From NCBI GenBank assembly GCA_027729805.1, contig JAQCEO010000006.1, positions 1 through 52,977 on the forward strand: a stretch of 52,977 bases of DNA. Reading direction: 5' to 3'. Position 1 is the first letter of the stretch, and each line of letters begins with the position of its first letter. Shown here piece by piece: positions 29,907 through 45,885 of this stretch. The notes below the pieces were generated by a model that made no database searches, was not told the DNA's origin, and was given only the letters and a program-made list of their open reading frames with translations. Source of the DNA: Actinomycetota bacterium. GTDB taxonomy: Bacteria > Actinomycetota > Actinomycetes > S36-B12. The position numbers and the translations under genes are program-made.

Positions 29907-30049
29907 AGGAAAAACCTTTCAGGAGAATCGACGGGAGATCAGAATCGACGGTTGTCGACAGGCAAAAACTATTGCGAATTAAGGGATTAAGCCAGTCGAC
30001 ACACCGTCGCAATGGTAAAGCCAAAACTCAAAAAGTGTCGAAAAGCAGC

Positions 30050-30637
30050 TTAACTGGTGGTCGGAGTGAATCCGGGGCGCTGCTTTTCGAAGGCGGCGAT
30101 CGCATCGCCCGACTGCAAAGTGATCCCAATATCGTCCAAACCCTCCAACAACCGCCAGCGCACATAGCTGTCCACCTCGAAATCGGCGACCAGGTCGCCG
30201 GCTCGGATCTGCTGCCCCTCGAGGTCGACTGTTACCTCGGTGGCCGGATCTTTGGCTATGAGCGCCCAAAGTTGCTCGACGGTCTCTTGCCTAACCTCGG
30301 CCGTTAGCAGGCCGCCTTTACCGGAATTGCCTCGGAAGATATCAGCGAACCGTGAGGAAATAACCACCTTGAAGCCATAGTTTTGGAGCGCCCAAACCGC
30401 ATGCTCACGCGATGATCCGGTACCAAAATCCGGGCCGGCCACCAAGATGGTAGCGCCAGCATGGTGCTGCTGATTAAGGACAAACTCCGGATCCTGGCGC
30501 CAAGATGCGAATAACCCGTCCTCAAATCCGGTGCGGGTAATCCGCTTTAGGTACTCGGCCGGGATGATCTGGTCGGTATCGACATTGCTTCGCTGCAGTG
30601 GCACCGCGGTGCCGGTATGCGTGGTGAATGCGTCCAT
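30050..30637 (-). CDS. leuD: 3-isopropylmalate dehydratase small subunit
   Basis: LeuD with LeuC isomerises 2-isopropylmalate in leucine synthesis (and citramalate to 3-methylmalate for isoleucine when CimA is used). The start [33 protein letters not shown] and [24 protein letters not shown] are diagnostic. ATG at 30637 with AAGGAG nine bases upstream, ten bases after the leuC stop. About 195 aa. Confidence 0.95.
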
Positions 30638-30647
30638 TGCCTGCTCC

Positions 30648-32057
30648 TTAGACGAGGTTTGGCAGGTCGGCGGGGGCGGCCAAGGTACCGACCACGGCGG
30701 TAGCCGCCGCAACTGCCGGCGAGACCAAATGGGTGCGGCCACCTGGGCCTTGTCGGCCTTCGAAATTGCGATTTGAAGTTGAGGCGCTGCGCTCACCGGG
30801 GGCTAATTTATCCGGGTTCATGGCCAAACACATGGAGCACCCAGCCTCACGCCAATCGGCGCCCGCGTCAATGAACACGGTGTCTAAGCCCTCGGCTTCG
30901 GCTTGTAGCTTGACGCGCACCGAACCGGGGACGATCAACATGCGAACTGAATCCGCCACCTGGCGGCCGCGCAACACCTCAGCAACAGTCCGAAGGTCCT
31001 CGATCCGGCCATTAGTGCACGACCCAACGAAAACCGTGTCAATCGCGATTTCCCGTAACGGAGTACCGGGCACGAGGTCCATATAGGTAAGTGCCCGCTC
31101 GATAGCGGTGCGCTCAACTTCATCACTTGCAGTTGCCGGTGAAGGCACCGAGCCCGAAAGCGGCAGGCCTTGGCCCGGATTGGTCCCCCAGGTCACATAC
31201 GGGCTAAGGGCGGTTGCATCGAGATGGACCTCGGCATCAAATACCGCGTCGGCGTCACTGGGCAAGGTGCGCCAGTAGGTGACCGCCTCATCCCAAGCTG
31301 CACCGGTCGGTGCGTGCTCCCGACCCTTTACGTACTCAAAAGTGGTTTCATCCGGGGCGACCATGCCGGCTCGCGCGCCAGCCTCAATGGACATATTGCA
31401 CAGGGTCATGCGACCCTCCATGGAAAGGCCTCGAATTGCCGAGCCGCGGTATTCAAGGACATAACCTTGGCCACCGCCGGTGCCAATCTTGGCAATTATG
31501 GCCAAGGTGAGGTCCTTGGCGGTAACGCCGGCCGGGAGTTCACCGTCAACAGTGATGGCCATTGTTTTAAAAGGCTTAAGCGGCAGGGTTTGAGTTGCCA
31601 GCACGTGCTCGACCTCGCTGGTGCCGATCCCAAAGGCCAGGGCTCCGAAGGCACCGTGGGTCGAAGTGTGAGAGTCACCGCACACTACGGTCATGCCCGG
31701 TTGGGTCAGCCCAAGTTGCGGGCCCACCACGTGCACGATGCCCTGCTCGATACTGCCGAGTGGATAAAGGGGTACCCCGAATTCAGCGCAATTCGCGCGC
31801 AGCGCATCGACCTGAGCCCGCGAAATCGGGTCGGCAATTGGCTGATCAATATTTATCGTCGGCACATTGTGGTCTTCGGTTGCCAAAGTCAGATCCGGCC
31901 GGCGCACCCCGCGACCGGTTACCCGTAACCCGTCAAATGCTTGTGGGCTGGTGACCTCGTGCACCAGGTGCAAATCAATGTAGAGCAGATCTGGTTCGCC
32001 TTCGGCATGGCGCACCACATGCGTCGCCCAGACTTTCTCTGCGAGTGTGCGTGCCAC
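30648..32057 (-). CDS. leuC: 3-isopropylmalate dehydratase large subunit
   Basis: Aconitase-family subunit with a [4Fe-4S] cluster. [63 protein letters not shown] and the cluster loop [13 protein letters not shown] are present, 469 aa. GTG start with AGGAG six bases upstream. It lies directly after the gltX-tRNA-Gln-tRNA-Glu run in the same direction. Confidence 0.96.
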
Positions 32058-32079
32058 CTATTGCTCCTTTTGGATCGGA

Positions 32080-32110
32080 GCGCGGGCCCTTGACTCTCAA
32101 GAACCCGCGC
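32080..32110 (-). promoter_or_regulatory. hairpin between tRNA-Glu and leuC
   Basis: The stem GCGCGGG/CCCGCGC (7 bp), a 2x2 internal loop, then CTTGA/TCAAG (5 bp) with a three-base loop, ends 22 bases before the leuC start. No T-run follows, so it is not a classical intrinsic terminator. It may separate tRNA processing from the leuCD mRNA or act on leuC expression. Confidence 0.45.
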
Positions 32111-32118
32111 CCATCTTG

Positions 32119-32191
32119 TAGCCCCGACGGGATTCGAACCCGCGCTACCGCCTTGAGAGGGCGGCGTGCTAGGCCACTACACAACGGGGCC
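32119..32191 (-). tRNA. tRNA-Glu (anticodon CTC)
   Basis: 73-base tRNA with acceptor arms GGCCCCG/CGGGGCT, anticodon stem CCGCC/GGCGG around loop CTCTCAA (anticodon CTC, reads GAG), and TTCGAAT T-loop. The first pair is G-U. CCA is not encoded. Confidence 0.95.
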
Positions 32192-32246
32192 GTGCCTTCG
32201 GTCAGGTATTAGGTCAGGTGGTCCTACCACGTTAACCGAACACCAG

Positions 32247-32318
32247 CTGGGGTACCAGGACTCGAACCTAGACTAAATGAATCAGAATCATTTGGGCTGC
32301 CAATTACCCCATACCCCA
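32247..32318 (-). tRNA. tRNA-Gln (anticodon CTG)
   Basis: 72-base tRNA with acceptor TGGGGTA/TACCCCA (the weak U1-A72 pair typical of tRNA-Gln), discriminator G, anticodon stem AATGA/TCATT around loop TTCTGAT (anticodon CTG, reads CAG), and TTCGAGT T-loop. It lies between gltX and tRNA-Glu. As gltX is of the bacterial type, Gln-tRNA is probably made by the GatCAB route. Confidence 0.95.
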
Positions 32319-32359
32319 TGGGGCCGATCACTCGGCGAAGGGTGATTATAGGCGACCGG

Positions 32360-33853
32360 CTACCCACCTCCAATCGCCGCATCAAGTCGGGCCAAGCAAC
32401 CGGATTTACCCAAAATCTCCATGGATTCAAATAGGGGTGGTGATATCCGGCGCCCGGTAATGGCCACCCGCAGCGGGGTGAATGCCAATTTGGGTTTCAG
32501 CCCAAGTCCGTCGACCAACGCGCCCGTTAGCGCCTCGTGGATTGCAGCTGTGCGCCACGTGGGCAGTCCCACCAATACCGCCCGGGCCGCCGTCAATGTC
32601 GATGCGGCTTCAACTCCTAGCACCCCAAGGTCGGCCGCATCGACCACGAATCGCTCCGGTGGCACCAGCAAGAACGACAGCATGCCCACCGACTGGCTCA
32701 GGTTCTCCATCCGTTCTTGGATCAATGGGGCCGAGGCCGCCAAGAGGGCCAATTGCTCGGCCGTCGGCTGCTGCGGGATCAACCCGGCAGTTACCAAGAA
32801 CGGGGTGATGCGCTCGACTAATTCAGCCGGCGCCAACGACCTAATCCAGTCCCCATTGATCGCGGTGCACTTCACCAGGTCAAAGCGTGCTGGATTTTGG
32901 TTGACCCGCTCAAGGGTAAAAACCTCGGCCATCTGCTCCTTGCTGAAAAACTCCTGGTCATCGCCCATGGACCAGCCGAGTAGTGCCAAATAATTAAGTA
33001 GTGCTTCAGGCAGGTATCCGGTTTCGCGATACATTAAAAGGGATGACTCCGGATCGCGCTTGGAGAGTTTTCGGTTGCCCTCACCCATCACATATGGCAG
33101 ATGTCCAAAGCGTGGAGTGGTGCCGTCGCTCACCCCAATCGCCGCCAGCGCTTCATAGAGGGCGATCTGACGTGGGGTTGAAGACAATAAATCCTCACCA
33201 CGTAATACGTGGGTGATGCGCATCAGGGCATCGTCAACCGGATTGACGAGGGTATAAAGCGGCTCACCATTGCCCCGCACCAAAACATAATCGGGTACAT
33301 GCTCCGCAGCGAAGGTAATTGAGCCGCGGACAAGGTCATCCCACTCGTAGTCACGGTCGGGCATCCGGAATCGAAGTACCGGCTCGCGGCCTTCGTCCTC
33401 GTAGGCCGATATTTGCTCGTCGGTTAACTCCCGGCACTTACCGTCGTAGCCCGGGGTGCGGCCTTGGCTCTTAGCTAGTTCGCGACGGGCTTCGAGTTCG
33501 GTTGCCGAGCAATAGCAGTCATAGGCGAACCCACCAGCGCGCAGTCGTTTCGCGACCTCGGCATACACGGGCAGTCGATCAGATTGCCGGTAGGGTCCGT
33601 ACTCACCCCCGACCTCGGGGCCTTCGTCCCAGTCCAGCCCCAGCCAACGCAGTGAATCAAGTAGCGCGTTGTAGGACTCCTCGCTATCACGTGCTGAGTC
33701 GGTATCTTCAATTCGAAAAACGAAGGTACCTCCGGTATGGCGAGCGAAAGCCCAGTTGAACAACGCCGTACGAACCATGCCGACATGGGGATTGCCCGTC
33801 GGTGACGGACAAAAGCGCACTCGTACGCCGGTTGCGCCCACTTGCTTAGACAC
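32360..33853 (-). CDS. gltX: glutamyl-tRNA synthetase
   Basis: Class I synthetase charging tRNA-Glu (and probably tRNA-Gln). [29 protein letters not shown] holds the HIGH-type motif, [14 protein letters not shown] the GluRS signature, and [14 protein letters not shown] the KMSKS motif (KLSKR). The start is taken as GTG at 33853, overlapping the stop of the upstream FAH-family gene; a TTG two codons earlier is also open. Its cognate tRNA genes follow at once. Confidence 0.95.
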
Positions 33854-34637
33854 GGTCAATCACCGAATTAGTTAACGAGCCGATACCTTCGATGGCGACT
33901 GTTACGCTATTTCCGGCTACCAACGGCCCCACTCCAGCTGGCGTACCGGTGAGAATCAAGTCGCCCGGGATTAGCGTCATGATCGAACTGATGTAGGCGA
34001 TCAAGGTCGCAATATCGTGCACCATGTCACTTGTTGAACCCGTTTGACGAAGTACCCCATCAACAGTGCAAGTGATTCGAGCATTCTGGACATCGATATC
34101 GGTTTCAATCCACGGGCCAATGGGGCAAAAAGTATCGAAGCCTTTCGCGCGGGACCACTGACCATCGGTGTGCTGCAGGTCGCGGGCGGTCACATCGTTC
34201 GCGCAGGTGTAGCCGAGAATGACTTCGTGGGCGCGCTCGGCCGGCACATCACTACAAAGGCGCCCGATTACGACCGCTAGTTCGGACTCATGCTCGACTT
34301 TTTCAGATTGCCAAGGCAAGGCGATGGCCTCACCAGGCCCAATAATGCTGGTACTTGGTTTTAGGAATATCAGTGGTGACGCCGGCGCTTCCCCGCCCAT
34401 TTCCTTGGCGTGGTCCGCGTAGTTCTTGCCCACCGCCACGATTTTGCTCGGCAATACCGGTGCCACCAAGCGGGTATCGGCCAATGGGATGATCCGGCCT
34501 TCAGAGACTAGATCCCCGAATGGGTGTCCGGTGATCAACACCACCAAGGATGCCTCGGTGGGCTCGTTGTCGGCAGAAACGCCTTCGAGTACCCCGTAAA
34601 ACAATTCACCGTCCACCGCTACTCGGACTATGCGCAC
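33846..34637 (-). CDS. fumarylacetoacetate hydrolase (FAH) family protein
   Basis: 263-aa FAH-family hydrolase/decarboxylase acting on 2-oxo-acid-type C-C bonds. The family core is clear: [49 protein letters not shown], the Glu pair and Asp ligands for Mg, [29 protein letters not shown] and [12 protein letters not shown]. It lies between cimA and gltX, a place common in actinobacteria, but its substrate is not known there either. Confidence 0.88.
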
Positions 34638-34659
34638 CCACGCAGCCTATCTAGCGTAA

Positions 34660-36243
34660 CTACGCGCCACGTTTGGCCGCCCGGAGCAACCCGAAGGTGA
34701 CGGCATCTTCCAGCGCCCGCCAGGACGCCGCAATCACGTTCTCGTGGACCCCGACCGTCGACCATTGACCGAACCCATCCGTGGTACCAACTAGGACCCG
34801 AGTGACGGCCCCGGTGCCGGTGCCGCCCTCAAGGATGCGCACCTTGTAATCGACCAACTCAAGTGCATCCAGCTCCGGGTACAGCTGGATCACAGCGGCA
34901 CGCAAGGCGCGGTCAAGGGCATTGACCGGACCGTTGCCCTCGGCCGTAGAAATGATTCGTTCACCACTTGCTTGCACCTTGACGGTGGCCTCGGTGCTTA
35001 CGCTGCCATCAGCCGCCTGCTCGACAACAGTGCGCCAAGATTCCACCTCGAATCTACGCTCCGAGCCGGCTTCGTCCAAGAGTAAGAGCTCAAATGAGGC
35101 ATCGGCTGCCTCAAATGTCCAACCCCGGGACTCCATCTCCTTCACCTTTTCGATGACTCGGGTGAGCAGTGCGAAGTCTCCCGTTAGGTCATAGCCCAAT
35201 TCGCGACCCTTAAGTTCAACCGAGGCACGTCCGGCCATTTCGGTTATTAGTACCCGCATGTCGTTGCCAACCAAGGTCGGGTCAATGTGGTTATAGAGAT
35301 CAGCCGATACTTTAAGTGCGCTGGCATGCAAGCCGGCTTTATGCGCAAATGCCGAAATACCGGCATATGGCTGATGGGTATTGGGTGCGATATTCGCGAT
35401 CTCGGCTATTGCATGTGCGATACGGACCGTTTCCCCAAGTGCGCCTTCGGGCAAAATGTCGTAGCCCAACTTTGTTACCAAGTTCGGGACCACGACGAAT
35501 AGGTCAGCATTACCGGTGCGTTCACCGTAACCATTTGCGGTGCATTGCACATGGGTCGCGCCTGCTTCAACAGCTGCAACGCTATTGGCTATGGCGCACC
35601 CGGTGTCATCTTGGCAATGAATGCCAAGCCGCGCCGCCGACCTGGCGGCGACATCTTTTAACGTGGCGGTGATACCGCTTGGCAACATTCCACCGTTGGT
35701 ATCGCAAAGCACAACCACGCTAGCGCCGGCCGCATGAGCCGCATCGGCGAGGCGCACCCCATAGTCACGATCGTGTTTATAGCCATCGAAAAAATGCTCC
35801 ATATCGACGAAGACCCGCCGACCGTGCGTCACCAAATACTCCACGGTGTCGTGGACCATCGCCGCGTTCTCATCCAAAGTCGTCTTCAGCGCATCAATAA
35901 CGTGCAGCACATCCGATTTCGCCACAATCGTGATCACCGGAGCGCCGGAGTCAAGTAGTGCCTGCACCTGGGGATCTTCAGCGACCGCCACCCCCGGCTT
36001 ACGGGTCGCACCGAAAGCCACCAGCTCTGCGTGCTGTAAGTGCAACTCGGTTTTTGCTCGCTCGAAGAACTCGGTGTCCTTGGGCATGGCCCCGGGCCAA
36101 CCACCTTCAATAAATCCCACTCCATAAGCATCGAGGAGTCGAGCAACGGTGAGTTTGTCGTTGACCGAGTAGGAAATCCCCTCCCGCTGGGCACCATCGC
36201 GCAAGGTGGTGTCGTAGACATGGAAAGTATCGGGGCGGGCCAT
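34660..36243 (-). CDS. cimA: (R)-citramalate synthase
   Basis: Condenses pyruvate and acetyl-CoA to citramalate, the entry to isoleucine that bypasses threonine deaminase. It starts YDTTLRDGAQREGISYSVNDKL (HMGL catalytic motif DGAQREG) and has FIEGGWPGAMPKD, LGIHCQDDTGCAIANSVAAVEAGATHVQCTANGYGERTGNAD and a C-terminal LeuA-like regulatory dimer domain (GNGPVNALDRALRAA, VDYKVRILEGGTGTGAVTRVLV). The length of 527 aa and the GGWPG motif separate it from LeuA. It is preceded by an Ile-codon leader peptide and terminator. Confidence 0.93.
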   Translation of the reverse strand: MARPDTFHVYDTTLRDGAQREGISYSVNDKLTVARLLDAYGVGFIEGGWPGAMPKDTEFFERAKTELHLQHAELVAFGATRKPGVAVAEDPQVQALLDSGAPVITIVAKSDVLHVIDALKTTLDENAAMVHDTVEYLVTHGRRVFVDMEHFFDGYKHDRDYGVRLADAAHAAGASVVVLCDTNGGMLPSGITATLKDVAARSAARLGIHCQDDTGCAIANSVAAVEAGATHVQCTANGYGERTGNADLFVVVPNLVTKLGYDILPEGALGETVRIAHAIAEIANIAPNTHQPYAGISAFAHKAGLHASALKVSADLYNHIDPTLVGNDMRVLITEMAGRASVELKGRELGYDLTGDFALLTRVIEKVKEMESRGWTFEAADASFELLLLDEAGSERRFEVESWRTVVEQAADGSVSTEATVKVQASGERIISTAEGNGPVNALDRALRAAVIQLYPELDALELVDYKVRILEGGTGTGAVTRVLVGTTDGFGQWSTVGVHENVIAASWRALEDAVTFGLLRAAKRGA

Positions 36244-36273
36244 GATCGTCCTCTTTCTCGCGGTGGTGCAATG

Positions 36274-36301
36274 AAAAAGCCCCCCGCGGGTGCGAAGGGC
36301 T
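36274..36301 (-). terminator. attenuator terminator upstream of cimA
   Basis: On the minus strand AGCCC pairs with GGGCT across a GC-rich loop that can itself pair (CGC/GCG), followed by TTTTT and then, about 30 bases on, the cimA start. It lies just after the Ile-rich leader peptide and a second hairpin, the layout of a transcription attenuator. Confidence 0.8.
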
Positions 36302-36324
36302 GCGCGTCAACTAGGTTGACGCGC
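36302..36324 (-). promoter_or_regulatory. perfect hairpin at the end of the cimA leader peptide
   Basis: GCGCGTCAAC-CTA-GTTGACGCGC is a 10-bp perfect stem with a three-base loop. Its first base is the last base of the leader peptide stop codon, so a ribosome finishing or stalled on the leader would mask it. It could be the pause or anti-termination arm of the attenuator. Confidence 0.7.
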
Positions 36325-36356
36325 TATAAAATAATGCTGCTGACGATGTTGATCAC
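36324..36356 (-). CDS. isoleucine-rich leader peptide of cimA
   Basis: A 10-codon frame, GTG start, reads MINIVSSIIL and stops. Four of ten residues are Ile (ATC, ATC, ATT, ATT), with Val and Leu. It is followed directly by the hairpin at 36302-36324 and the terminator at 36274-36301, then cimA, the first committed gene for isoleucine. Scarcity of charged tRNA-Ile would stall ribosomes on the leader and favour read-through. There is no strong SD (only AGGG close to the start), and CACACT six bases upstream is a weak -10 candidate, so it may also be read from ilvE. Confidence 0.75.
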   Translation of the reverse strand: MINIVSSIIL

Positions 36357-36388
36357 GGCCCTAGTGTGCCATATGGGATCAAGGCCCG

Positions 36389-37513
36389 CTAGCAGATGGT
36401 ATGCATCCAGTTATGGCGATCAGCCACCGCACCGGTCTGGATATCCAAAAGTGCCTGCCTCAAGGTCATCGTGACGGCTCCGATGTGACCCCCGGCGACC
36501 TCCCAGGCGCCACTTTCCCTGGACTTGACTTGCCCGATCGGGGTGATGACGGCCGCGGTGCCGCAGGCAAATACTTCGGTGATCGAACCACTGGCACAGC
36601 CGGCGCGCCAATCATCAACACTGATTCGGTCTTCTTCCGCGCGAATCCCAAGATCCTCGGCAACAGTTAATAACGACTCCCGGGTAATGCCGGGAAGAAG
36701 CGCACCGGTCAGTTGCGGGGTGCGGATGCGGGCGGAATCACCTTCACCATGGACGAAGTACAGGTTCATGCCCCCCATCTCCTCGATCCAGCGACGCTCA
36801 ACAGCATCCAGCCAGACCACTTGATCACAACCATGTTGGGCAGCCTCAGCCTGCGCAACAAGTGACGCCGCGTAGTTACCGGCACACTTCGCCTCGCCAG
36901 TACCACCCGGTGCCGCACGCACATATTCATCAGATAACCACACCGTGACCGGCTTAACCCCCTGCGGAAAGTACGCACCCGCTGGCGATGCGATTAACAG
37001 ATACTCATAAGCATTTCCCGGGCGAACCCCAAGGCCAATTTCCGTGGAGATCATGAAGGGACGTAGATAAAGTGATTTCTCCCTGTCACTTGGTACCCAT
37101 GCTTGATCTTGACGCACCAGCGCCTCAATCGAACCCAGGAATAGCTCATCGGGTACCTCGGCCATCGCGAGCCGGCGGGCAGATCGGGCGAAGCGCTCCG
37201 AGTTTTTGATCGGCCGAAAAGTCTTGACACTGCCATCTGCATGCCGATAAGCCTTCAGGCCTTCGAAGATCGCTTGGCCGTAGTGCATGAAGTTCGTAGC
37301 TGGGTCCAAGAGCAATGGACCATATGGCACGAGTTCGGCACCGTGCCAACCGTCCGCAGCTGTCCACTTTGCGCGAACCATGTGGTCGGTGAAGTATTTG
37401 CCAAATCCCGGATCGGCCATGATGGTCTCGCGCTCGGCGGCTGATTTAGGCGCTGTCGAAGCCTTGATGTCAATCGGCCACAGCGAAGTGCCGGTTTCGG
37501 TGCTAGTTGTCAT
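36389..37513 (-). CDS. ilvE: branched-chain amino-acid aminotransferase
   Basis: Fold-type IV PLP transaminase for Val, Leu and Ile, last step of each pathway. MVRAKWTAADGWHGAELVPYGPLLLDPATNFMHYGQAIFEGLKAYRH region, FARSARRLAMAEVP, VWLSDEYVRAAPGGTGEAKCAGNYAASLVAQAEA (PLP Lys within AKCAGNYA), and EEMGGMNLYFVH are present. 374 aa, the actinobacterial long form. Confidence 0.95.
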   Translation of the reverse strand: MTTSTETGTSLWPIDIKASTAPKSAAERETIMADPGFGKYFTDHMVRAKWTAADGWHGAELVPYGPLLLDPATNFMHYGQAIFEGLKAYRHADGSVKTFRPIKNSERFARSARRLAMAEVPDELFLGSIEALVRQDQAWVPSDREKSLYLRPFMISTEIGLGVRPGNAYEYLLIASPAGAYFPQGVKPVTVWLSDEYVRAAPGGTGEAKCAGNYAASLVAQAEAAQHGCDQVVWLDAVERRWIEEMGGMNLYFVHGEGDSARIRTPQLTGALLPGITRESLLTVAEDLGIRAEEDRISVDDWRAGCASGSITEVFACGTAAVITPIGQVKSRESGAWEVAGGHIGAVTMTLRQALLDIQTGAVADRHNWMHTIC

Positions 37514-37543
37514 CGGTGGCCCCCTCTGGTCGATGGGGTAACG

Positions 37544-37642
37544 CTACAGGTGCCCCACCCCTGACAGCTCGTCAGTACGCCCAGTTAATTGCGAGGCGAA
37601 TCGACAAAGTTCGAATACCTGCACCATGTGTAGACCCATCAC
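37544..37642 (-). CDS. possible short upstream ORF before ilvE
   Basis: In the 191-base leuB-ilvE gap, CGAGGAG followed by GTG-ATG opens a 32-codon frame (MMGLHMVQVFELC...) that stops 30 bases before ilvE. It contains scattered Leu and Val codons but no run. A perfect GAAGATT/AATCTTC hairpin (37664-37680) lies upstream of it. Its translation and role are unproven. Confidence 0.25.
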   Translation of the reverse strand: MMGLHMVQVFELCRFASQLTGRTDELSGVGHL

Positions 37643-37704
37643 GGCCGCTGGCTCCTCGCGCTACGAAGATTTCTAATCTTCCAGCAACTACTTATCGTCG
37701 CCGC

Positions 37705-38760
37705 TCAGGCGGAGGCAGCCAATGCGCCGGCCGCTAGTGCGTCGCCAATCTGGCTAGTTGAACGAGGGTTCGTACCACGGGTGGCTAAGTCATTTTCGAC
37801 AGCGGATTCAACCCACCCTGATGCCTCAAAGCAGCCAACGTGATCTAGCAGCATTGCCAGTGACATTACGGTGGCCGTCGGATCAGCCTTGCCTTGCCCG
37901 GCGATATCTGGTGCAGAACCATGAACCGGCTCGAACATACTTGGGTTACTGCGGCTCGGGTCGATATTGCCACTTGCCGCTAGCCCGATCCCGCCACCGA
38001 TTGCGGCGCCAATATCGGTAAGAATGTCGCCGAATAGATTGTCGGTGACAACAACGTCGAAACGCTCCGGGTTCGTCAGGAAGAACATTGATGCCGCATC
38101 AACATGCAGATAATCGGTGGTGACTTCCGGGTACTCCAGCTTCACCCGATCAAAAGTGCGCTGCCAAAGATCGCCCGCGAAGACCAACACGTTTGTCTTA
38201 TGCACCAAAGTCACCTTCTTGCGCCGGCGCATCGCACGATCAAATGCATCGCGAATAATGCGCTCAGCCCCATAAGCGGTGTTCAAGCTGACCTCGGTCG
38301 CAACTTCTTGGGGTGTCCCGATCCGCAAGACCCCACCGGCTCCCACATACGGGCCTTCGGTGCCTTCCCGGCAGACTACAAAGTCAATATCCTTTGGGCC
38401 TTTACCAGCGATCGGCCCGGTCACACCGGGGTACAACTTCACCGGTCGCAGGTTTACGTGGTGGTCCATCACAAATCGCAGTGGCAACAACACCCCACGC
38501 TCCAAGATGCCAGATTTCACTGACGGGTCGCCGATGGCCCCGAGCAAGATGGCGTCATAGCCGCGAAGCTCTTCAACCACATGGTCGGGCAGTAATTCAC
38601 CCGTGGCGTTGTACCGGCGGGCCCCAAGGTCGTATTCGGTCGCTGTCACCGTGATACCCGCTGCGGGCGCAATGGCGCCCAGTACTTTCATGGCTTCGGC
38701 CACCACCTCGGTGCCAATGCCGTCGCCGGGAATCAGGGCCAGATTGAGGGTCTTTGACAT
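37705..38760 (-). CDS. leuB: 3-isopropylmalate dehydrogenase
   Basis: Oxidative decarboxylation in leucine synthesis; also 3-methylmalate oxidation in the citramalate route. [86 protein letters not shown] and [23 protein letters not shown] are typical. I start it at the ATG at 38760; eight more upstream codons are open. Divergent from the leuA leader across 41 bases. Confidence 0.95.
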
Positions 38761-38789
38761 GGGCGAAACCCTACCTAGCGCCACTCTGG

Positions 38790-38795
38790 TACTCT
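38790..38795 (+). promoter_or_regulatory. -10 element for the leuA leader
   Basis: TACTCT lies six bases before the GTG of the Leu leader peptide, suited to a leaderless transcript. No convincing -35 is seen. The same arrangement occurs at ffh. Confidence 0.4.
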
Positions 38796-38801
38796 GCGTG
38801 G

Positions 38802-38849
38802 GTGTTCATCGTCAACCTGCTCCTTCGCCGCCGCGGCGAGGCCTCTTAA
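38802..38849 (+). CDS. leucine leader peptide of leuA
   Basis: A 15-codon frame ([18 protein letters not shown] start) with three consecutive Leu codons CTG-CTC-CTT followed by Arg codons, ending 72 bases before leuA. Leu-run leader peptides before leuA are known in actinobacteria and control the gene by attenuation. Starvation for Leu would stall ribosomes on the Leu run. Confidence 0.82.
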
Positions 38850-38857
38850 CCGGCCTC
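38838..38857 (+). promoter_or_regulatory. hairpin overlapping the end of the leuA leader peptide
   Basis: GAGGCC and GGCCTC pair over an eight-base loop that contains the leader stop codon. The following bases (GTCGCGGGTTTCGTCGTTTG) hold only interrupted T residues, so a classical U-run terminator is not clear. The mechanism could be transcriptional or translational. Confidence 0.45.
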
Positions 38858-38900
38858 CTCGTCGCGGGTTTCGTCGTTTGCCGGTCCTCCCCCAAACTGA

Positions 38901-40676
<1,776 letters not shown>

Positions 40677-40682
40677 ACCGAC

Positions 40683-42266
40683 CTAGTTGAGGTCTACTGA
40701 CTTCCCGCTGTGGGCACCAATCTTGCTGACGATCTCATCGAGAGTGACTGCAGGAATCGGTGAGTCGATGGTCAACACAATAAGTGCGTGACTGCTCTCA
40801 TCACGGCTCACCTGCATGCCCCCGATGTTTATGTTGGCGTCGCCGAGTACCTTGCCGACCACCCCCACCACACCTGGCTTGTCGTGATAGCGCAGGAAAG
40901 CCATGTGGTCACTTACCGGCACATCAACGTCGAAGCCATCGACTTCTACCACCTTTGGCGTGTGCCGCGGACCTGCGACCGTGCCGGCCACGCTTACGCT
41001 CTCGCCGCCGGTCAAGGTTATGGTTACTCGCACCAATGACCGGTGGTCATCACTTGTCCGATCCGTAGTAAGCACTACTTCGACGCCACGCTGCTCAGCA
41101 ATAACGGGGGCGTTGACGTAGGAAACGGGATCATGAACGAGCATCTGGAATACCCCTTTCAGGGCTGACAACTCCAGCACACGCACATCGTGATCAGCGG
41201 CTTCACCGCGAACCTCAACGGTTACCCGAGCCACGGCGGCCGTCGCCAAGCCACAGGCAATCGCTCCGAGTTTCTCGGCCAATGGCAACAGGGGCTTGAT
41301 TTGCTCGGCCATCTGGCCACCTTGGACGTTAACCGCATCCGGTACTAGCTCACCGGCGAGGGCCAGCCGCACCGAGCGGGCAACGCTAATACCCGCTTTC
41401 TCCTGCGCTTCATCGGTAGATGCGCCCAGATGCGGGGTGGCCACGACTTGCTCGAGTGTAAATAAAGGTGAGTTGATGCAGGGCTCCTTGGCATAAACAT
41501 CAAGGCCGGCGCCGGCCACCCGCCCATCAACGATGGCGTCATACAGTGCTTTTTCATCGACAATGCCACCGCGTGCTGCATTGATGATGTGCACGGTTGG
41601 CTTCACTTTATGTAATTCGGCATCGCCAATTAGTCCTACGGTCTCAGCGGTCTTGGGTAGGTGCACCGTGATGAAATCACTGTCGGCCAGCAGATCATCT
41701 AAGGACACCATGCGCACTCCTAGTTGAGCCGCGCGGGCCGGCTGCACATAGGGGTCGTAGGCAATCAGCTTTACCCCAAATGCGCTCAGCCGCTGAGCAA
41801 CGAGTACTCCGATGCGACCTAGGCCTACGACTCCAACCACTTTGTCGGCGACTTCAACTCCGGTAAACTTAGAGCGCTTCCACTCCCCCTTGCTGAGCGC
41901 AGCACTGGCTGGAGCGACATTGCGCGCACTTGCCAGCAGCAACGCGACGGTAAGTTCGGCCGCACTCACGATATTTGAACTTGGTGCGTTGACGACCATG
42001 ACACCGGCCTGGGTTGCGGCTTTAATATCAACATTGTCAAGCCCAACTCCCGCGCGAGCAATCACCTTCAGCTTCGACGCCGCAGCTATCGCCTCGGCGT
42101 CGACCATGGTGGCCGAGCGCACCAAAATGGCGTCAACGTCGACGATGGCCGCCAGCAAGGCCACGCGATCGGCACCATCACAATTGATGATCTCGAAGTC
42201 GGGCCCAAGGGCCTCAACGGTCGCGGGTGAGAGTTCTTCGGCAATTAGGACTCGGGATTTGGTCAC
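40683..42266 (-). CDS. serA: D-3-phosphoglycerate dehydrogenase
   Basis: First step of serine synthesis. The catalytic part has LIAEELSPATVEALG, LKVIARAGVGLDNVDIKAATQAGVMVVNAPSSN, Rossmann VVGVVGLGRIGVLVAQRL, and the His/Glu pair in TPHLGASTDEAQEKAG. The C-terminus has the allosteric ASB domain and an ACT domain (FLRYHDKPGVVGVVGKVLGDANINIGGMQVSRDE). 527 aa, the long form of actinobacteria. Downstream of ilvC on the same strand. Confidence 0.96.
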   Translation of the reverse strand: MTKSRVLIAEELSPATVEALGPDFEIINCDGADRVALLAAIVDVDAILVRSATMVDAEAIAAASKLKVIARAGVGLDNVDIKAATQAGVMVVNAPSSNIVSAAELTVALLLASARNVAPASAALSKGEWKRSKFTGVEVADKVVGVVGLGRIGVLVAQRLSAFGVKLIAYDPYVQPARAAQLGVRMVSLDDLLADSDFITVHLPKTAETVGLIGDAELHKVKPTVHIINAARGGIVDEKALYDAIVDGRVAGAGLDVYAKEPCINSPLFTLEQVVATPHLGASTDEAQEKAGISVARSVRLALAGELVPDAVNVQGGQMAEQIKPLLPLAEKLGAIACGLATAAVARVTVEVRGEAADHDVRVLELSALKGVFQMLVHDPVSYVNAPVIAEQRGVEVVLTTDRTSDDHRSLVRVTITLTGGESVSVAGTVAGPRHTPKVVEVDGFDVDVPVSDHMAFLRYHDKPGVVGVVGKVLGDANINIGGMQVSRDESSHALIVLTIDSPIPAVTLDEIVSKIGAHSGKSVDLN

Positions 42267-42299
42267 TGCAGGATTCTAGCGGTGGCCACTTGCGAAGGC

Positions 42300-43406
<1,107 letters not shown>

Positions 43407-43410
43407 TCAA

Positions 43411-43938
43411 TTACGAGGCGGAGCGGTCGGCCAAGCGCACGGAGCGGTCCGAAATTGACTTAGCCCCTCGCGCCACCGCAACCACGCCAGACTTGACCAG
43501 TTCCTTGATTCCGAAGGGCTCAAGGATACGCAGAAGAGCTGCCAACTTTTCGCCGTTCCCGGTGGCCTCAATGGTGACGGCATCGGGGGAAACGTCAACC
43601 ACCTTGGCCCGAAAAAGCTGGACTGTTTCCAAAATATGCGACCTAGTCTCCAGATCGGCTTTCACCTTGACCAGCAAGATCTCCCGCTGCACTGAAGCAT
43701 CTGGATCAAGTTCCACAATTTTTAGGACGTTGATCAACTTATTCAGTTGCTTGGTCACCTGCTCAAGTGGTGCACCCTCAGCATTGACGACAATGGTCAT
43801 CCGCGAGATCTGTGGCACCTCGGTCGGACCAACGGCTAGGGACTCAATATTGAACCCACGTCGGGAAAACAAGCTGGCAACCCGCGCCAGCACACCGGGG
43901 GTATCTTCAACCAAAACTGACAATGTGTGTCGTGGCAT
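43411..43938 (-). CDS. ilvN: acetolactate synthase regulatory subunit
   Basis: Confers valine feedback on IlvB. The N-terminal ACT domain reads HTLSVLVEDTPGVLARVASLFSRRGFNIESLAVGPTE and the C-terminal half has LVKVKADLETRSHILETVQLFRAKVVDVSPD. The ATG at 43938 overlaps the ilvB stop by one base (TAATG). About 175 aa. Confidence 0.95.
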   Translation of the reverse strand: MPRHTLSVLVEDTPGVLARVASLFSRRGFNIESLAVGPTEVPQISRMTIVVNAEGAPLEQVTKQLNKLINVLKIVELDPDASVQREILLVKVKADLETRSHILETVQLFRAKVVDVSPDAVTIEATGNGEKLAALLRILEPFGIKELVKSGVVAVARGAKSISDRSVRLADRSAS

Positions 43939-45692
43939 TAGTCGTCCGACCCCCAATCCGGAGCCATGGCTCGCGCCACCAAGATTTCGTCATTGCTAGC
44001 GCCTGCTGCGACCATCGGCCACACCATGGCATCGCGATGCACAACGAAATCGATGACCACGGGTGCATCGTTCATGCCCATTGCCTTCTCAATAGTGGTA
44101 TCGACATCTTCCGGTGATTCGCAGCGCAGACCGTGACAACCGTATGCGTCCGCCAATTTAACGAAATCCGGTACTCGATGTGAGTGCAAATCGGTATTAG
44201 AATAGCGGCTGTTATAGAACAGGGTCTGCCATTGGCGAACCATGCCCAGGCTGCTGTTGTTGATCAGGGCTACTTTGATAGGGATGTCATTGATTGCGCA
44301 GGTAACCAACTCTTGGTTTGTCATCTGGAAGCAACCATCACCATCCACCGCCCACACGGTCTTGTCCGGGCAGCCGACCTTTGCACCCATCGCCGCCGGC
44401 ACCGCGTAACCCATGGTGCCCAAACCCCCTGAATTTAGCCACGAGTTAGGGCGCTCGTAGCCGATGAACTGCGCCGCCCACATTTGATGTTGACCAACCC
44501 CGGCCGCGTAGATTGCATCGGGGCCGGAGATTATTCCGAGACGCTCGATCACGTACTGCGGTGACAATGAGCCGTCATCGGGCGGTTCGTAACCTATTGG
44601 GTAGGTCTCGCGCATGCGATTAAGTAGTACCCACCAAGCGGCGTAGTCGCCGCTCTTGCCGGCCGCGTACTCGCCTTCAAGTGCGATCACCAACTCGGGG
44701 ATGACTTCGGCTACATCGCCAACGATTGGAATATCGGCGTACCGATTCTTGCCTATTTCTGCGGGATCGATATCAGCGTGGATAACCGCGGCATTTGGTG
44801 CGAAGGTCGAGAGCTTGCCGGTGACCCGATCGTCAAAGCGCGCACCTAGGGTGATCAAGAGGTCGGATTTTTGAAGTGCACCGACAGCAGCGACGCTGCC
44901 GTGCATACCGGGCATACCCAGGTGCTGGGGATGTGAATCCGGGAAGGCCCCGCGCGCCATCAGCGTAGTGACAACCGGGATACCGGTGATATCAGCCAAC
45001 CTTCGCAGCGCAGCGGACGCACCTGCTCGGATTACTCCACCGCCAACATAAAGCACGGGTGCTTTTGCGGCGATGATCATGGCGGCGGCATCGCGCACCT
45101 GCTTGGCATGCGGCTTGGTCACCGGGTGATAGCCGGGAAGATCAATCGAGGTCGGCCAGTCGAAAGTGGTCATTGCTTGCAGCGCGTCCTTCGATACGTC
45201 GACCAGGACTGGGCCTGGTCGGCCCGTTGACGCGAGATGAAATGCCTCGGCCATCACCCTTGGAATGTCGTCCGGGTTGGTGACCAGATAATTGTGCTTG
45301 GTGATGGGCATCGTGATGCCGCGGATATCGGCCTCCTGGAAGGCATCGGTGCCGATCGCACCGCTTGGCACCTGACCGGTGATCGCCACCATCGGGACCG
45401 AATCCATTGCCGCATCGGCGATTGGCGTAACCAAGTTGGTAGCCCCCGGCCCACTTGTGGCAACACATACCCCAACTCGGCCGGTGGCCGCAGCGAAACC
45501 TTCAGCCGCATGGCCGGCGCCTTGCTCATGCCGGACCAGAATATGGCGAACTTTGGAGTCCAGTAGCGGGTCATAAAGTGGTAGCACCGCACCACCGGGA
45601 ATCCCGAATACATCTGTTACACCAGCGGCCTCGAGGGCTAAAACCAGGCTTTGGGCACCGGAAATCGGTGCACCCGTGGATTGTTCACCCAT
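43938..45692 (-). CDS. ilvB: acetolactate synthase catalytic subunit
   Basis: ThDP enzyme making acetolactate and acetohydroxybutyrate. [58 protein letters not shown] with the ThDP Glu, [10 protein letters not shown], and the Mg/ThDP motif [16 protein letters not shown]...[12 protein letters not shown] are complete. The start [12 protein letters not shown] at 45692 has AGAGGG upstream; codons before it belong to the attenuator leader. 584 aa. Heads ilvB-ilvN-ilvC. Confidence 0.96.
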
Positions 45693-45759: not shown

Positions 45760-45791
45760 AAAACCCCCCGACCCTGGTGGGTAACGGAGGG
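45760..45791 (-). terminator. attenuator terminator upstream of ilvB
   Basis: CCCTCCG pairs with CGGGGGG (one G-U pair) over a 14-base loop, followed by TTTT, on the ilvB strand 67 bases before ilvB and 19 bases after the leader-peptide stop. Confidence 0.85.
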
Positions 45792-45810
45792 CAGCGCACG
45801 GGATATGCGT

Positions 45811-45849
45811 CTAGCCCGCGCGCCTAATAACTACAAGATTCTTTGCCAC
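45811..45849 (-). CDS. branched-chain leader peptide of ilvB
   Basis: A 12-codon frame with GTG start reads [12 protein letters not shown] and stops. The Leu-Val-Val-Ile run followed by Arg-Arg is the pattern of ilvB leader peptides in actinobacteria. It sits between a good promoter (7 bases upstream, so leaderless) and an intrinsic terminator, forming a complete attenuator that senses all three branched-chain amino acids. Confidence 0.88.
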
Positions 45850-45856
45850 GGGACGG

Positions 45857-45885
45857 ACGATACCGGTCCCACGGCGATTTGTCAC
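45857..45885 (-). promoter_or_regulatory. promoter of ilvBNC
   Basis: GTGACA (-35, five of six matches to TTGACA), a 17-base spacer and TATCGT (-10) end seven bases before the leader GTG. Transcription starting at the GTG would give a leaderless leader peptide. The remaining stretch 45886-46060 up to the GntR gene shows no gene. Confidence 0.7.

Follow-up and report, generated by a model that had tools for sequence, protein, structure and literature searches.

A conserved candidate isoleucine attenuator upstream of the citramalate synthase gene cimA in Actinomycetes, with no classical antiterminator found

Introduction

Attenuators carrying branched-chain codons are known in actinobacteria for the ilvB, leuA, and leuS genes (PMC1262725, PMC8079986, PMC10272879, PMC13236596). 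The ilvB attenuators of Streptomyces coelicolor and S. lividans (ilvL), Mycobacterium, and Corynebacterium have a short and often leaderless reading frame with branched-chain codons, followed by a terminator with a U run. Mapping has placed leaderless starts at S. lividans ilvL, among others (PMC8079986), and at C. diphtheriae ilvB (PMC5784534). The ilvB-II motif of Corynebacterium has an upstream reading frame with Ile, Leu, and Val codons, a first hairpin (P1), and then a second hairpin (P2) with a U run; its antiterminator is drawn from P2 to the P1 loop (PMC10272879). The leuS attenuators of Streptomyces (PMC1262725; LeuL2, PMC8079986) have Leu codons in a leaderless frame, a hairpin, and a terminator, and Seliverstov 2005 drew antiterminators for them (PMC1262725).

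In the trp, his, and ilvGMEDA operons of E. coli, codons are sensed by ribosome stalling, and the terminator before the structural gene is controlled by an alternative hairpin that hides its 5′ arm. E. coli pyrBI senses UTP via polymerase pausing. In pyrBI, and in terminators near stop codons, the proximity of a ribosome blocks the hairpin without an antiterminator (PMC4824070).

Here, I describe a leader of the actinobacterial type upstream of cimA, the citramalate synthase gene, in a 52,977-nucleotide contig (hereafter the window; JAQCEO010000006.1 of assembly GCA_027729805.1) from an Actinomycetota bacterium. It shares the short frame, the branched-chain codons, and the U-run terminator with the ilvB attenuators, while its regulatory codons are mainly Ile codons. 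A cimA leader is absent from the 2005 survey of actinobacterial attenuators (PMC1262725) and from the S. lividans list (PMC8079986). A literature search, which left most subscription journals outside its reach, found no attenuator or leader peptide for cimA or citramalate synthase, just as the initial annotation of this locus had known of none. There was also no Rfam match, to a T-box or any other cis-regulatory element, over the leader of the window at E ≤ 5. Thus, within the literature searched, cimA is a new target.

Results

The cimA leader in the window

The window comes from a genome of 2.03 Mb that is kin to Candidatus Nanopelagicales. The gene order on the minus strand is leuB (38784-37705), then ilvE, then cimA, with gene families assigned by NCBIfam. 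The features around the cimA leader are as follows.

36389..37513, minus strand: ilvE, branched-chain aminotransferase, upstream of the cimA leader (NF009897 and TIGR01123, above cut-off)
36363..36371, minus strand: extended -10 element TGG-CACACT, at -15 to -7 of the leader GTG (conservation among cimA leaders)
36324..36356, minus strand: leader peptide ORF, GTG ATC AAC ATC GTC AGC AGC ATT ATT TTA TAG (sequence)
36302..36324, minus strand: hairpin P1, the putative ON-state (starvation) hairpin (folding; both-side changes in 7 of 10 pairs)
36278..36301, minus strand: hairpin P2, the intrinsic terminator stem, 0 nt from P1 (folding; terminator scan)
36274..36278, minus strand: terminator U run (sequence; kept in the leader alignment)
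34660..36243, minus strand: cimA, citramalate synthase, the regulated gene (TIGR00977 equivalog, 616.2 bits against a cut-off of 450)

The order of the element is thus leader frame, P1, P2, U run, and cimA, whose ATG lies at 36243. The leader peptide is V/M-I-N-I-V-S-S-I-I-L, and four of its 10 codons are Ile codons. The initial annotation had read it as MINIVSSIIL and had omitted the strand; the frame and the four Ile codons were found on the minus strand, while the first codon is GTG instead of ATG. No well-placed Shine-Dalgarno site was found for this GTG. P1 is GCGCGTCAAC-CTA-GTTGACGCGC, with 10 perfect pairs and a 3-nt loop (CTA), and it is fused to the stop codon, as the last base (G) of the UAG is also the first G of P1. 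P2 is AGCCCTTCGC-ACCC-GCGGGGGGCT, with 10 pairs, two of which are G-U. Both the perfect 10-bp hairpin touching the stop codon (36324-36302) and the second hairpin (36301-36278) with its T run (36278-36274) ahead of cimA had been noticed in the initial annotation, and both were confirmed.

The limits of P1 and P2 are those of minimum-energy folds, and anchored folding was used across the leaders. The whole cimA leader folds with -48.4 kcal/mol (z = -4.15), and P1 plus P2 without the rest of the leader with -35.5 kcal/mol (z = -6.27); in both cases, none of 200 shuffles was as low. In a terminator scan of positions 30000-42500, P2 ranked first. A short CATTG or CGTTG right after the U run (36273-36269 in the window) is kept in most leaders and may have to do with polymerase pausing or with the point of termination.

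An IlvA-type threonine deaminase is encoded in the same genome (G000 contig C91:3927-5054, locus L213; TIGR01127, 427.6 bits), so that cimA is a second, not the sole, entry into isoleucine synthesis. Judging from these gene assignments, two routes to 2-oxobutyrate coexist in the host. CimA, which the initial annotation called isoleucine's own entry enzyme, is one entry, and the IlvA-type enzyme is another. No such leader was found by a covariance model before the threonine deaminase gene. No plasmid copy was found.

Promoter and leaderless start

The promoter box is fixed relative to the start codon. Among the 72 distinct cimA leaders of the order (see below), the pattern [TC]A...T occurs at exactly -12 to -7 of an in-frame GTG or ATG in 54, against 0-9 at shifted positions, and 45 have the TG at -15/-14 in addition. 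In some relatives, the box is formed by the stop codon of ilvE (TGC-TAGGTT in L011). A sigma-70 scan missed this promoter because the box begins with C and no -35 element is seen. Taking the most upstream start codon proved a poor rule, as a GTG within the GTGTGG of the promoter is often in frame, and this rule was replaced. The position of the extended -10 element places the predicted +1 at the leader start codon, which gives a leaderless leader mRNA. Thus, the cimA leader of the window is probably transcribed from an extended -10 promoter of its own as a leaderless RNA. The suggestion of an own weak promoter in the initial annotation is supported by this conserved box.

Conservation among relatives and across the class

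Is this arrangement common among the relatives? The cimA loci of relatives of the same order were collected via cimA, and the DNA upstream was read. The arrangement is present upstream of cimA in 100 of the 111 loci, representing 72 distinct sequences. In the shared plan, a frame opening with GTG or ATG contains a run (ATC ATC ATT, for instance) that is separated by a single codon from a TAG fused to P1; P2 and the U run follow. In the alignment of 42 leaders, the P1 foot GCG/CGC is invariant and the remainder of P1 covaries, with both-side changes in 40 cells compared with 9.7 in shuffles. The covariation score is 0.246, whereas slid versions of the structure score 0.066-0.099. A chance pattern is ruled out by the 72 distinct homologous leaders together with this covariation.

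In a few relatives (L020, L024, L070, and L084), the stop codon has changed place, either to the P1 loop or to the preceding codon, with the spacing between the Ile codons and P1 unchanged. Some of the contigs (L035, L041, L042, L043, L045, L100, and L078) are titled Bifidobacterium breve or Rubrivirga sp., while their cimA loci are 72-92% identical to that of the window; the organism names on these metagenome records look wrong.

Of the remaining 11 loci, one is on a contig that begins at cimA. The other 10 have cimA abutting or near ilvE with no such element, nor was a leader found in them by the covariance model. In these relatives (L091, L094, L097, L100, L102, L103, L104, L108, L110, and L111), cimA mostly overlaps or directly follows the ilvE stop codon. 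The genomes of the order without a model match are mostly small (1.5-1.8 Mb), which suggests a loss through genome streamlining.

It was also considered that the P1 palindrome is a DNA operator for a repressor and not an RNA hairpin. An inverted repeat of 10+10 bp with a 3-nt spacer close behind a promoter would suit an operator. However, the arm sequence, the arm length, and the loop vary widely, with P1 ranging from 21 to 76 nt, and the pairing is kept nonetheless; beyond the P1 foot it is the pairing rather than the sequence that is conserved. The operator reading is very improbable and was rejected on this ground.

A covariance model (R1) was built from the cimA leaders of the order. In a class-wide sample of 395 genomes, it matches in 257 (E ≤ 0.01), and in a phylum-wide set of 296 genomes it matches in 37 (E ≤ 0.001). 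To guard against counting only the favorites of R1, one genome was taken from each of 39 families and cimA itself was examined. A strong cimA match was found in 32 of the 39 families, and of the 30 complete loci, 24 have the leader upstream of cimA. One family with genomes of 6-11 Mb has cimA leaders such as V-S-S-F-V-M-I-I-G-S; this family probably corresponds to Streptomyces. The initial annotation would have been contradicted by related genomes without the run of Ile codons or without a terminator. It withstood this comparison: the Ile codons, the hairpin, the stop codon, and the U run were kept across the class.

Codon identity and sister leaders

The last two regulatory codons are Ile codons in 103 and 107 of 109 cimA leaders, respectively. 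In 98 of 110 cimA leaders, the last Ile is encoded by ATT, while the first Ile codon is mostly ATC (window 36335-36330). A single tRNA-Ile should read both ATC and ATT.

It was found that R1 also matches leaders before ilvB, leuS, leuA, and leuB, many of the ilvB leaders at E < 1e-5. The codons fit the gene: Leu, Val, and Ile for ilvB, and Leu in 5 of 5 leuS leaders and in both leuA leaders. The lone leuB leader has Ile and Val codons. The gene identities of L143 (leuA), L189 (leuS), and L154 (leuB) were checked with NCBIfam. The five leuS leaders (L184, L186, L187, L189, and L190) have 2-3 Leu codons and the same P1/P2 geometry. No Rfam match was found in eight tested cimA, ilvB, leuS, and leuA loci at E ≤ 1.

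The window has its own ilvB leader.

45811..45849, minus strand: ilvB leader, GTG GCA AAG AAT CTT GTA GTT ATT AGG CGC GCG GGC TAG (R1 and sequence)
45793..45824, minus strand: P1 of the ilvB leader (fold)
45763..45792, minus strand: P2 (terminator) of the ilvB leader, flush with P1, with the U run at 45763-45760 (fold)
43938..45692, minus strand: ilvB, acetolactate synthase large subunit (NF005860, 1086 bits; sequence)

The start of ilvB was placed at the ATG at 45692; the mechanical ORF extends to 45761. The regulatory codons of this leader are L-V-V-I, its stop codon lies inside P1, and its R1 match (45760-45852) is weak (19.5 bits). A -10-like TATCGT lies one base further upstream than the box of the cimA leaders (region 45760-45862, minus strand). 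The upstream frame of M. tuberculosis ilvB1 also has L-V-V-I, and its attenuation is backed by end mapping, ribosome footprints, and reporters (PMC13236596).

These data bear on another reading, in which P2 is an ordinary terminator of the ilvE transcript joined to a chance short frame, and cimA is transcribed from another promoter. Given its place immediately after ilvE, P2 could indeed serve to terminate ilvE transcripts as well. However, the Ile codons, the codon-P1 distance, the promoter box, and both hairpins are kept far beyond the ilvE-cimA neighborhood, and the codons change with the downstream gene. This reading is hardly credible and was rejected.

Search for a classical antiterminator

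In a classical attenuator, an antiterminator excludes the 5′ arm of the terminator. Folding of the full-length leader at equilibrium left P2 formed in every state, and the same was true of the E. coli controls. Since full-length P2 probabilities thus fail to separate the states even in E. coli, a truncated-transcript test was used: with the ribosome set at chosen codons, the probability that upstream RNA captures the terminator 5′ arm before the 3′ arm is made was calculated. The E. coli trp and ilvG controls gave 0.62 and 0.75 in the stalled state and about 0 at the stop codon, while the his control gave 0.69 stalled and 0.68 at the stop.

No antiterminator of control strength was found in 135 leaders (109 cimA, 21 ilvB, and 5 leuS). 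Across the cimA, ilvB, and leuS leaders, the median probability of capture was 0.001-0.003 for a ribosome at the first regulatory codon and 0.19-0.26 for one at the last; the cimA leaders alone gave 0.001 and 0.26. The cimA leader of the window gave 0.00-0.28, in contrast to the 0.62-0.75 with which E. coli trp, his, and ilvGMEDA hide the terminator 5′ arm. The sole alternative pairing over all ribosome positions was a 3-bp GCG/CGC helix, which appears when the P1 foot is covered. The pairing of the P2 3′ arm with the P1 loop drawn for the ilvB-II motif was absent from the folds of the window, in which the loop is 3 nt; in the cimA leaders, this loop is often 3-4 nt.

It may be argued that attenuation is of the textbook kind after all and that folding missed a mutually exclusive antiterminator, such as a pseudoknot or, in the case of transcripts entering from ilvE, a pairing with far-upstream RNA. 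Published accounts of related actinobacterial leaders are of this type (PMC10272879, PMC13236596, PMC1262725), and the 3-bp GCG/CGC alternative does arise once the P1 foot is covered. On the other hand, the test that detects one in E. coli trp and ilvG found nothing as strong in 135 leaders of three genes, and P1 loops of 3-4 nt leave nothing for P2 to pair with. Thus, the textbook mechanism seems unlikely here. The word attenuator in the initial annotation holds as to function, while the textbook alternative antiterminator was not found. As P1 and P2 have no bases in common, P1 must act without the usual alternative pairing.

Fixed distances between ribosome, P1, and P2

The hairpins and the codons are instead held at fixed distances. 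The P1-P2 gap is 0-1 nt in 130 of 138 leaders, a count from which larger gaps may be missing, since P1 and P2 are minimum-energy folds and a model favoring flush hairpins was used to find the leaders outside the order. This bias is limited, not removed, by the 72 leaders of the order and the one-per-family sample, which were gathered through cimA. Within the same loci, a gap of 0-1 nt was seen in 76 of 97 leaders versus 9 of 53 other terminators.

In most leaders, five nucleotides separate the last regulatory codon from P1. With the usual footprint of 12 nt from the A site (the E. coli value), a ribosome halted at the first regulatory codon would by geometry cover a median of 0% of the P1 5′ arm, and one halted at the last Ile codon about 40%. 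At the stop codon, which is fused to P1 or lies inside it, the median coverage is 91-100% (minimum, 56%). Leaders with the stop codon inside P1 have a longer P1 (median, 33.5 versus 26 nt; p = 3e-8, which overstates the independent cases because the leaders are related by descent). P1 measures anywhere between 21 and 76 nt, yet once it is folded, P2 lies 14, 11, or 8 nt from the stalled codon, depending on whether this is the first, second, or last, respectively. The distance from the stop codon to P2 is at least 19 nt in all leaders. In E. coli, an intrinsic terminator is repressed when a ribosome follows RNA polymerase closely; the free RNA between the A site and the hairpin has an estimated minimum of 10-15 nt and a fitted threshold of 27 nt (PMC4824070). 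From the fixed distances and this scale, I infer that P1 is a distance shortener.

Proposed switch

It is very probable that the element is a ribosome-mediated transcription attenuator that places cimA under isoleucine control. Its regulatory codons correspond to the product pathway of the downstream gene, a conserved intrinsic terminator (P2 and the U run) stands between leader and structural gene, and, by geometry, the position of the ribosome would change the RNA hairpin. The proposal of the initial annotation, that isoleucine supply controls cimA through stalling on Ile codons, is consistent with the conservation of the Ile codons, hairpin, stop codon, and U run.

The switch may work as follows. 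Transcription would start at or next to the leader GTG, and a ribosome would load onto the leaderless mRNA. Under a shortage of charged tRNA-Ile, it would stall on the Ile codons with its leading edge at or just inside the P1 foot. P1 would then fold, RNA polymerase would pass P2, and cimA would be made. Folded P1, flush with P2, would cut the RNA between ribosome and terminator to 8-14 nt, so that P2 could not close in the exit channel of the polymerase. When isoleucine is plentiful, the ribosome would reach the stop codon and sit on the P1 5′ arm. With P1 unfolded and at least 19 nt left, P2 would form and transcription would end upstream of cimA. Stalling, termination, and its relief in the cell are inferred here, and the ON-in-starvation direction is assumed from the gene functions and by analogy with the M. 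tuberculosis ilvB1 data.

As a whole, an Ile attenuator of cimA in which folded P1 blocks P2 sterically is likely the best explanation, while the balance is even for the step of steric exclusion taken alone. The simplest steric model makes no demand on the last Ile codon, which is nonetheless the most conserved (107/109) though a ribosome there partly covers P1. That codon would fit better with P1 and P2 forming a compound stacked terminator, whose P1 foot is unzipped by the stalled ribosome so that termination is weakened. The invariant GCG/CGC foot would be opened by a ribosome standing on the last Ile codon, and flush stacking would stabilize the two hairpins. However, P1 is covered most at the stop codon, above any Ile codon, which gives the wrong sign unless release is very fast, and P2 by itself already folds with -17.4 kcal/mol without P1. 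Thus, a compound terminator is rather improbable, and steric blocking by folded P1 is preferred.

Some published work counts against the switch proposed here, including the antiterminators drawn for Streptomyces leuS (PMC1262725) and, through the P1 loop, for the ilvB-II motif (PMC10272879). According to a secondary account in PMC1262725, codon changes in the S. coelicolor ilvB leader left regulation unaffected. For M. tuberculosis ilvB1, mutually exclusive structures have been described (PMC13236596).

Discussion

The cimA leader belongs with the actinobacterial ilvB leaders in sequence and structure, as R1, made from cimA leaders, matches ilvB leaders including that of the window. It departs from them in that the published ilvB attenuators have models with mutually exclusive antiterminators (PMC1262725, PMC8079986, PMC13236596), of which none was found for cimA. 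The ilvB-II motif has the same succession of frame, P1, and P2 with a U run, but not the same pairing of P2 with the P1 loop. The Streptomyces leuS attenuators concern another gene and another amino acid, and the five leuS leaders found in this study share the geometry of the cimA leader. With E. coli trp, his, and ilvGMEDA, the cimA leader has in common codon sensing by ribosome stalling and a terminator before the structural gene. A parallel to the proposed step is E. coli pyrBI, where ribosome proximity acts without an antiterminator. Unlike in pyrBI, the proximity at cimA would be created by a folded hairpin, and the signal would be uncharged tRNA.

The missing antiterminator and the fixed distances make this leader a candidate for a new variant of ribosome-mediated attenuation. 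It is conceivable, although this extension is tentative, that an attenuator without alternative pairing, in which a flush hairpin acts as a distance shortener, is common to cimA, ilvB, leuS, and leuA in Actinomycetota. The fixed distances from codon to P1, from P1 to P2, and from stop codon to P2 offer a simple and testable alternative to the textbook switch, and they may explain why certain actinobacterial leaders resisted the classical model. If the proposal is true, most Actinomycetes, among them lineages with large genomes that are probably of the Streptomyces type, would control their citramalate route to isoleucine by one ancient RNA switch.
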